Positions 10,264-25,902 of a stretch of 42,448 nucleotides of DNA are shown here, piece by piece. Location of the stretch: contig LOER01000010.1 in NCBI GenBank assembly GCA_001515945.1, positions 1 through 42,448 on the forward strand, in the 5' to 3' direction. The notes beneath the pieces were generated by a model that ran no database searches, was not told the DNA's origin, and saw nothing but the letters and a program-made list of their open reading frames with translations. The first letter of the stretch is position 1. Each line of letters opens with the position of its first letter. Position numbers and translations under genes: made by a program. The DNA is from Desulfitibacter sp. BRH_c19 (GTDB taxonomy: Bacteria; Bacillota; DSM-16504; Desulfitibacterales; Desulfitibacteraceae).

Positions 10264-10289
10264 TTTTCCATCATCCTTAAAGTAATATG

Positions 10290-10445
10290 GTTTAGGCAGG
10301 TCTCCTGACTTCCAACTCAATCGTCACGCGGCTTACCTTCCCAGATATAGTCCAGTGGTATAGCCTAACTCGTTGGTTACAGTGATGGGTTCGTGCTGGA
10401 ATTTCACCAGCTTCCCTATTACCCCTTTACGGGCACCTAACATAT
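10290..10445 (-). ncRNA. Cobalamin (B12) riboswitch aptamer
   Basis: On the minus strand the segment begins with the GGTGCCC block, contains GGGAAGCTGGTGAAATTCC, an AGCACGAACCCATCACTGT segment matching the conserved B12-box region, and ends with GAAGTCAGGAGACCTGCC. These are the hallmark blocks of the AdoCbl riboswitch family. It precedes cobT, with an intrinsic terminator between them. Confidence 0.93.
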
Positions 10446-10542
10446 TAGATATTCATATACTTATATTATAGTCTAAACCCGATATAAATATCAATATAAT
10501 TATTCACAACTTCATGCAAAAGTTAATAATATCTCATATATT

Positions 10543-11500: not shown

Positions 11501-11576
<76 letters not shown>

Positions 11577-11582
11577 AAATAT

Positions 11583-11657
11583 TGGTGACCCGTAGGGGAC
11601 TCGAACCCCTGATACCGCCGTGAAAGGGCGGTGTCTTAACCGCTTGACCAACGGGCC
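11583..11657 (-). tRNA. tRNA-Glu (UUC)
   Basis: A 75-nt cloverleaf with acceptor GGCCCGT/ACGGGTC (one G-U), anticodon stem CCGCC/GGCGG around CTTTCAC (anticodon UUC), T-arm GGGGTTCGAGTCCCC and an encoded CCA. It lies 6 bp upstream of tRNA-Phe. Confidence 0.97.
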
Positions 11658-11670
11658 ATTTTGAGATTAA

Positions 11671-11746
11671 TGGTGAGCCATCCGCGACTCGAACGCGGGA
11701 CACCCTGATTAAAAGTCAGGTGCTCTACCGACTGAGCTAATGGCCC
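11671..11746 (-). tRNA. tRNA-Lys (UUU)
   Basis: A 76-nt cloverleaf with acceptor GGGCCAT/ATGGCTC, anticodon stem CTGA/TCAG around CTTTTAA (anticodon UUU), T-arm CCGCGTTCGAGTCGCGG and an encoded CCA. It is the first of three tandem tRNA genes and lies 65 bp downstream of the GntR gene. Confidence 0.97.
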
Positions 11747-22052: not shown

Positions 22053-22173
22053 ATTTATCCAAAAATATTCAATATGGGTTAAGACCCCCACTACTATAAG
22101 TGGACTCTAAACCAGGTGGAGTAGAGTCTCCATCTGATTCCCCAATGTTCGGGTTTGGCTGAACGAGTTCACT
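22053..22173. repeat. Structured dispersed repeat, intact copy
   Basis: This ~120-bp block shares long stretches with 25744-25902. On the plus strand it folds into GGGT/ACCC, CCACT/AGTGG, CAGGTGGAG/CTCCATCTG (9 bp, one G-U, loop TAGAGT) and a GTTCGG/CTGAAC hairpin, and it ends GAGTTCACT where similarity to the other copy stops. The terminal hairpin followed by GAGTTCAC resembles right ends of IS200/IS605 elements and the 3' end of TnpB-associated RNAs, though no tnpA or tnpB is present. It lies between DUF523 and purA, a 439-bp gap with no gene. Confidence 0.75.
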
Positions 22174-25711: not shown

Positions 25712-25743
25712 AAAAAAAGGTAAAAGCACCGTGCCTTTACCTT
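25712..25743 (-). terminator. Terminator downstream of dnaB
   Basis: On the minus strand AAGGTAAAGGCAC pairs with GTGCTTTTACCTT (one G-U), followed by a run of seven T. It is about 175 bp beyond the dnaB stop codon; the intervening 3' untranslated region is filled by the structured repeat. Confidence 0.85.
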
Positions 25744-25902
25744 CATCCAAAAATACTCTATATGGGTTAAGACCCCCACTTCTTTTAAGGAAAGGGACAC
25801 ACCTGTGAGTAGAACCAGGAATGTCCCCAATATGGCTAAATCAGGTGGAGTAGAGTCTCCATCTGATTCCCCGATGTTCAGCTTTGGCTGAACGAGTTCA
25901 CT
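25744..25902. repeat. Structured dispersed repeat, copy interrupted by a second element
   Basis: This is the partner of 22053-22173. Similarity runs from ATCCAAAAATA to GAGTTCACT. It is broken after CCCCCACTTCTTTTAAG, where the partner continues through the AGTGG arm of a hairpin; here a ~45-bp inverted-repeat element is inserted. The remaining hairpins are stronger than in copy 1: ATCAGGTGGAG/CTCCATCTGAT (11 bp) and GTTCAGC/GCTGAAC (7 bp, loop TTTG). It lies in the dnaB 3' untranslated region. Confidence 0.75.
25794..25828. repeat. Small inverted-repeat element nested in the structured repeat
   Basis: GGGACACACCT at the start and AGGAATGTCCC at the end are inverted repeats and nearly match the ends of the element at 10170-10218, while the interior differs. 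It splits the structured repeat. Confidence 0.7.

Follow-up and report, generated by a model that had tools for sequence, protein, structure and literature searches.

A dispersed hairpin-bearing repeat of Desulfosporosinus and other Bacillota is probably a non-autonomous IS200/IS605-type transposon with readable target guides

Two copies of a short structured repeat are present in the window, by which we mean the whole 42,448-nucleotide stretch of Desulfitibacter sp. BRH_c19 DNA analyzed here (contig LOER01000010.1, positions 1 to 42,448). Each copy is very probably a non-autonomous single-strand (peel-and-paste) transposon of the IS200/IS605 type, that is, a palindrome-associated transposable element (PATE). 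A preliminary description, made from the window alone, had named a non-autonomous IS200/IS605-derived element among its readings, and it is to this reading that target specificity, lack of target duplication, subterminal hairpins, guide complementarity at both ends and a joint switch of guide and target all point. Known PATEs have near-terminal palindromes, lack inverted terminal repeats, do not duplicate their target and carry no gene (PMC3119063). The repeat likewise has asymmetric ends, no inverted terminal repeats and palindromes near both termini, and at 112-250 bp it is too short for a transposase gene. In the mechanism that we propose, a Y1 HUH transposase (IS200-type TnpA) supplied in trans would bind the top-strand hairpins and cut on the left after T-T-N-A-T and on the right after GAGTTCAC. 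The cut sites would be recognized by pairing with tetranucleotide guides, AAGA on the left and GATG on the right, that precede the terminal hairpins. The excised strand, presumably as a single-strand circle, would then go in 3' of a new TTNAT, with T preferred as the next base. The repeat can be explained without any further function.

Both window copies are structured and end sharply at GAGTTCAC, 3' of a hairpin of the GTTCAGC-TTTG-GCTGAAC type, exactly as first described; the family to which they belong is far larger. Their limits needed refinement to 22059-22172 and 25747-25901, as the initial left limits lay at or just before the target pentanucleotide and the right ones included the host T that follows the element. 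The two copies, both on the plus strand, differ in length class, one being short (~112-114 bp) and the other long (~155 bp), the latter with an additional GGGACA...TGTCCC hairpin and without the usual 3' arm of hairpin H1. Copy 1 (22059..22172; short class, 114 bp, CCAAAA...GAGTTCAC) follows the target pentanucleotide TTTAT (22054..22058), which provides the left cleavage site (CL) and is host sequence according to left-flank alignments and the cobT empty site described below. The left guide (GL) AAGA (22081..22084), assigned by the IS608 rule (PMC5934647), stands 5' of the left subterminal hairpin H1 (22088..22103). The central hairpin H2 (22113..22136) carries the most compensatory changes. 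The right guide (GR; 22144..22147), AATG in this copy and GATG in most others, precedes the right subterminal hairpin H3 (22147..22164), and its last base is also part of the H3 foot. All three hairpins are based on covariation counts, and H3 also on a two-sided change in G312. The right tip GAGTTCAC (22165..22172) contains the cleavage site TCAC (CR); it is followed by T, the preferred +1 host base (22173), past which information is sharply lost. Copy 2 (25747..25901; long class, 155 bp) follows the target TTCAT (25742..25746). It consists of the left guide AAGA (25769..25772), the extra hairpin module GGGACA...TGTCCC (25794..25827), H2 (25840..25867), the right guide GATG (25873..25876), H3 (25876..25893, GTTCAGCTTTGGCTGAAC) and the right tip GAGTTCAC (25894..25901), with the +1 T at 25902. 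Copy 1 is located between purA and a gene of the 2-thiouracil desulfurase family, and copy 2 between dnaB and an ORF that matches no Pfam family.

The repeat is abundant in its own genome, well above what chance would give. A BLASTN search with copy 1 returned 50 matching segments (best secondary E-value 5.7e-48), and a scan for the right end allowing up to two mismatches found 49 places, while the reversed control pattern gave none. Some 45 further copies thus lie outside the window. The same scan of 398 genomes sampled across the phylum detected the right end in G006 (149), G317 (85), G061 (64), G312 (10), G189 (4) and G186 (1); the other 391 genomes gave zero, as did the reversed control. 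The richest of these, G006, was identified as Desulfosporosinus acididurans M1 from the identity of its loci to L124 and L209. Among named genomes, Desulfosporosinus accounts for most occurrences of the exact right-end pattern; further carriers include Desulfotruncus arcticus, Acididesulfobacillus, Tepidibacillus decaturensis, a Halothermothrix MAG and a Dethiobacter MAG. A search of 60 relatives covered two genomes of the same genus, one with a single copy and the other with none. No copies were found in the phages, plasmids and viral contigs searched. The repeat matched no Rfam model in the window and in five loci with copies, and we found no description of it in Rfam or in the Desulfosporosinus literature searched. 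On the minus strand of the window Rfam models detect a cobalamin riboswitch and three tRNA genes, at 10278-10453 and 11504-11746.

The ends of the element are exact. Alignments of 41 matches from the own genome and of 22 copies from the MAG SKS1.bin35 show unrelated flanks and sharp boundaries. On the right, the T after GAGTTCAC carries 1.72 bits of information and the base that follows it 0.04 bits (155 copies); this +1 T is present in 149 of the 155. The left flank reads T-T-N-A-T: among 85 copies, TTTAT occurs 44 times and TTGAT, TTCAT and TTAAT five times each, in a count where AT before the first C was imposed as a condition and positions -5 to -3 were free. Insertion thus takes place 3' of a fixed short target that is retained at the left flank, as in the IS200/IS605 mode of insertion. 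ISDra2, for comparison, inserts 3' of TTGAT (PMC2806898).

Interrupted genes give evidence of mobility. In SKS1.bin35, a copy (L216:373-484) interrupts cobT. If the element (CCC...GAGTTCAC) is removed and TTTAT is joined to TTCC, the reading ...VPVIVDGF|ISSAGALVA... is restored and the resulting protein aligns without gaps to CobT (6b5f, E-value 7e-18). Shifting the right boundary by a single base breaks the frame. It follows that the target is not duplicated and that the T after the element belongs to the host. A second genic copy (L151:1575-1691, 117 bp, target TTGAT) resides in a gene for a PrpR-like sigma-54 regulator (PrpR_N, PAS and sigma-54 domains); it is in frame and stop-free, and adds 39 codons. 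These are the two genic sites usable for the joined-flank test, and ORF-spanning statistics over all joined flanks are uninformative because few copies lie within genes. Both window sites are syntenic and empty in the sister species G002, and G001 likewise has the first one empty, in each case at less than single-base resolution. Finally, nearly all of the 22 SKS1.bin35 copies are near-identical over their whole length at unrelated sites, which shows a recent burst.

The consensus fold drawn from 24 diverse short copies comprises the three hairpins. Standard pairs fill 96.5% of 570 pair cells, compared to 87.1% after shuffling, and two-sided changes occur in 53 cells, compared to 22.2 in shuffles; in slid controls pairing drops to 33-48%. 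Most of the covariation resides in H2, and the two-sided change of H3 in G312 yields TTCAAC...GTTGAA. G-U pairs account for 28 cells on the plus strand, and reading the opposite strand would turn five mismatched cells into G-U, a count that favors the plus strand as the functional one. This preference fits RNA and top-strand single-stranded DNA equally.

Sequences 5' of the two terminal hairpins pair with the cleavage sites, another property of IS200/IS605 insertion. In IS608, the left site TTAC goes with the guide AAAG and the right site TCAA with GAAT (PMC5934647). By the pairing rule that we read off these IS608 sequences, guide bases 1, 2 and 4 complement site bases 2, 1 and 4, respectively. 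By this pattern, the left guide AAGA of the element fits TTAT and the right guide GATG fits TCAC; the first base of the right guide is G in 140 and A in 13 of 155 copies. Agreement of all six positions has a chance probability of ~1/4096 in a fixed register and a higher one in a free register, and this value should be read with the rule having been recognized post hoc, on data already seen, and with guide base 4 also able to pair within the hairpin foot. The joint switch of guide and target is stronger evidence. In copies of the Halothermothrix MAG the guide reads ATGA, and position -4 of their independent targets is A (7) or G (1) in place of the T of the main family, with the neighboring -5 still mostly T. 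The difference from the main family is significant (Fisher p about 1e-6). Guide base 1 and target position -3 covary as well: where guide base 1 is G rather than A, the T at -3 is less strict (p 0.0014).

A more far-reaching interpretation is that this guide-programmed mobile DNA forms a lineage standing on its own, which has no dedicated transposon partner, uses any host Y1 enzyme and has been naturally re-programmed to a new landing site through one guide base (AAGA to ATGA, target T to A). We consider this possible, yet put it forward as a tentative idea that is rather unlikely to hold in full. Retargeting of the same kind has reportedly been demonstrated earlier by engineering IS608. In a broader comparison, the element has in common with IS608 and ISDra2 (PMC5934647, PMC2806898) top-strand subterminal hairpins, tetranucleotide guides, a fixed short target on the 5' side of the insertion (TTAC and TTGAT, respectively; TTNAT here) and a preference for the +1 base, which is C in IS608 and G in ISDra2 (PMC5934647). 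In contrast to them, the element has neither tnpA nor tnpB, its target and +1 base read TTTAT|T, and it shows no consistent orientation bias. The transposon reading is also favored by TnpB elements (IS605 and IS1341 types) of the same genomes, including that of the own genome (L026): their right ends follow the same plan, GAAG-hairpin-...TTCAC, with GAAG belonging to the guide class GAnG, but none of those examined has the end of the element.

The absence of tnpA and tnpB in the vicinity, pointed out in the preliminary description, holds for the window. Elsewhere, the own genome encodes one intact TnpB and four long RAYT-like Y1 proteins (255-303 aa). An autonomous element with the same ends, the full-length insertion sequence for which a search had been advised, was not found by tblastn of TnpA and TnpB in 120 loci with copies. 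In 30 Desulfosporosinus genomes and five other carriers, the loci of TnpB and Y1 genes (best 30 loci per search) revealed no partner either, and split left and right ends were not found within about 3 kb. Intact IS200-type TnpA was not detected in the own genome, SKS1.bin35, the Halothermothrix MAG and Tepidibacillus, some of which are incomplete drafts. Since the only Y1 genes of the own genome are RAYT-like (255-303 aa), its copies may be immobile now. Two candidates were rejected. An IS608-like element (L251/L242, G068:C25; left end TTAC|C, guide AAAG) located just downstream of a copy has its own ends and is therefore an independent insertion rather than the partner. A ACGAGTTCAC-like match in L084/L098 is, by its looks, a coding coincidence.

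It might be argued that the copies are stand-alone guide (omega) RNA genes, whose plus-strand transcript would run past GAGTTCAC and provide a varying guide to a TnpB acting in trans. The plus-strand fold does covary, TnpB elements terminate on the right in a similar TTCAC-like sequence, and an intact TnpB is encoded in the own genome. The hairpin sequence of those TnpB elements is different, though, the element has no tnpB attached, and none of the TnpB genes examined shares its right end. G061, which is 99% complete and contains 64 copies, has no match to PF07282 (TnpB). The varying 3' sequences, suggested at first as possible guides, are the flanks of insertion sites, Rfam models are unmatched, and transposition accounts for both the fold and the +1 T. 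The guide-RNA reading proposed initially is thus improbable. Of the two outcomes that the preliminary description had named as refuting its idea, one was observed, in that none of the copies examined is linked to an intact tnpA or tnpB sharing their ends, and the other was not, in that plus-strand covariation is clear. As a separate observation, the remains of a tnpB element's 3' region (L070:2117-2450; hairpin as in L026) lie directly 3' of one copy.

Another possibility is that we are dealing with REP/REPIN-type repeats, moved by the RAYT-like Y1 proteins (255-303 aa) of the own genome; most Desulfosporosinus have RAYT-like genes as well. RAYTs are Y1 enzymes that act on hairpins. However, no RAYT gene examined is flanked by the element, the one at L055:7331 having different palindromes; the asymmetric ends and the TTNAT target also speak against such repeats, and Tepidibacillus, which carries a copy, gave no Y1_Tnp match. 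We accordingly regard this explanation, too, as quite unlikely. The RAYT-like gene in question (L055:7190-8150, G000:C26) is flanked by GGGGACGGTTCT / AACCGTCCCC palindromes, distinct from the element, which are probably its own REP repeats. REP/REPIN repeats with RAYT and the BOX elements of Streptococcus pneumoniae are short, dispersed, structured repeats, BOX with variable internal modules; in their ends and target these differ from the element.

The least credible reading, that of fixed regulatory structures in the 3' UTRs or intergenic regions of the adjoining genes, agrees with the position of both window copies between minus-strand genes and with 17 of 25 classifiable own-genome copies being antisense to both neighbors, but is already contradicted by empty sites in sister species, interrupted genes, near-identical copies at unrelated sites, exact ends and the lack of such a bias in 130 copies elsewhere, leaving room at most for secondary use of single copies. 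The orientation data also bear on replication. In the own genome, 21 of 26 copies are on the C-rich strand and five on the G-rich one, opposite to a lagging-template bias; in other genomes, 64 of 130 copies are on the G-rich strand, that is, without bias. Hence GC skew does not support coupling to the replication fork or an IS608-like lagging-strand template bias, which is not required of every IS200/IS605 member.

The closest known relatives in kind are the PATEs of Haloquadratum walsbyi (PMC3119063) and a PATE-like sequence of Halanaerobium hydrogeniformans (PMC7290912), which similarly lack inverted terminal repeats and target duplication, have near-terminal palindromes and are too short for a gene; in Haloquadratum they also reach a high copy number. 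Their ends are IS605-like, as those of the present family may be. The family described here differs from them in its hosts (Desulfosporosinus and other Bacillota), in having internal hairpin modules, in that no autonomous insertion sequence with the same ends was found, and in the readability of its guides and of their joint switch with the target. Its many independent natural insertions, about 50 to 150 copies in several genomes, make the DNA-guided choice of target by IS200/IS605 elements readable from sequence, also in a lineage with a joint change of guide and target. The exact ends should help to annotate a repeat common in Desulfosporosinus, and the analysis corrects the tempting misreading of its copies as orphan TnpB guide RNAs.

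Lengths of the copies cluster at 108-117, 155 and 178-182 bp, and a form of ~250 bp also occurs; the differences result from extra hairpin modules inside the element. In the longer forms (L171:2497-2751, L197, L104, L187), extra structured modules are nested in the central hairpin, and parts of these modules recur in both orientations among copies (L047 compared to L180).
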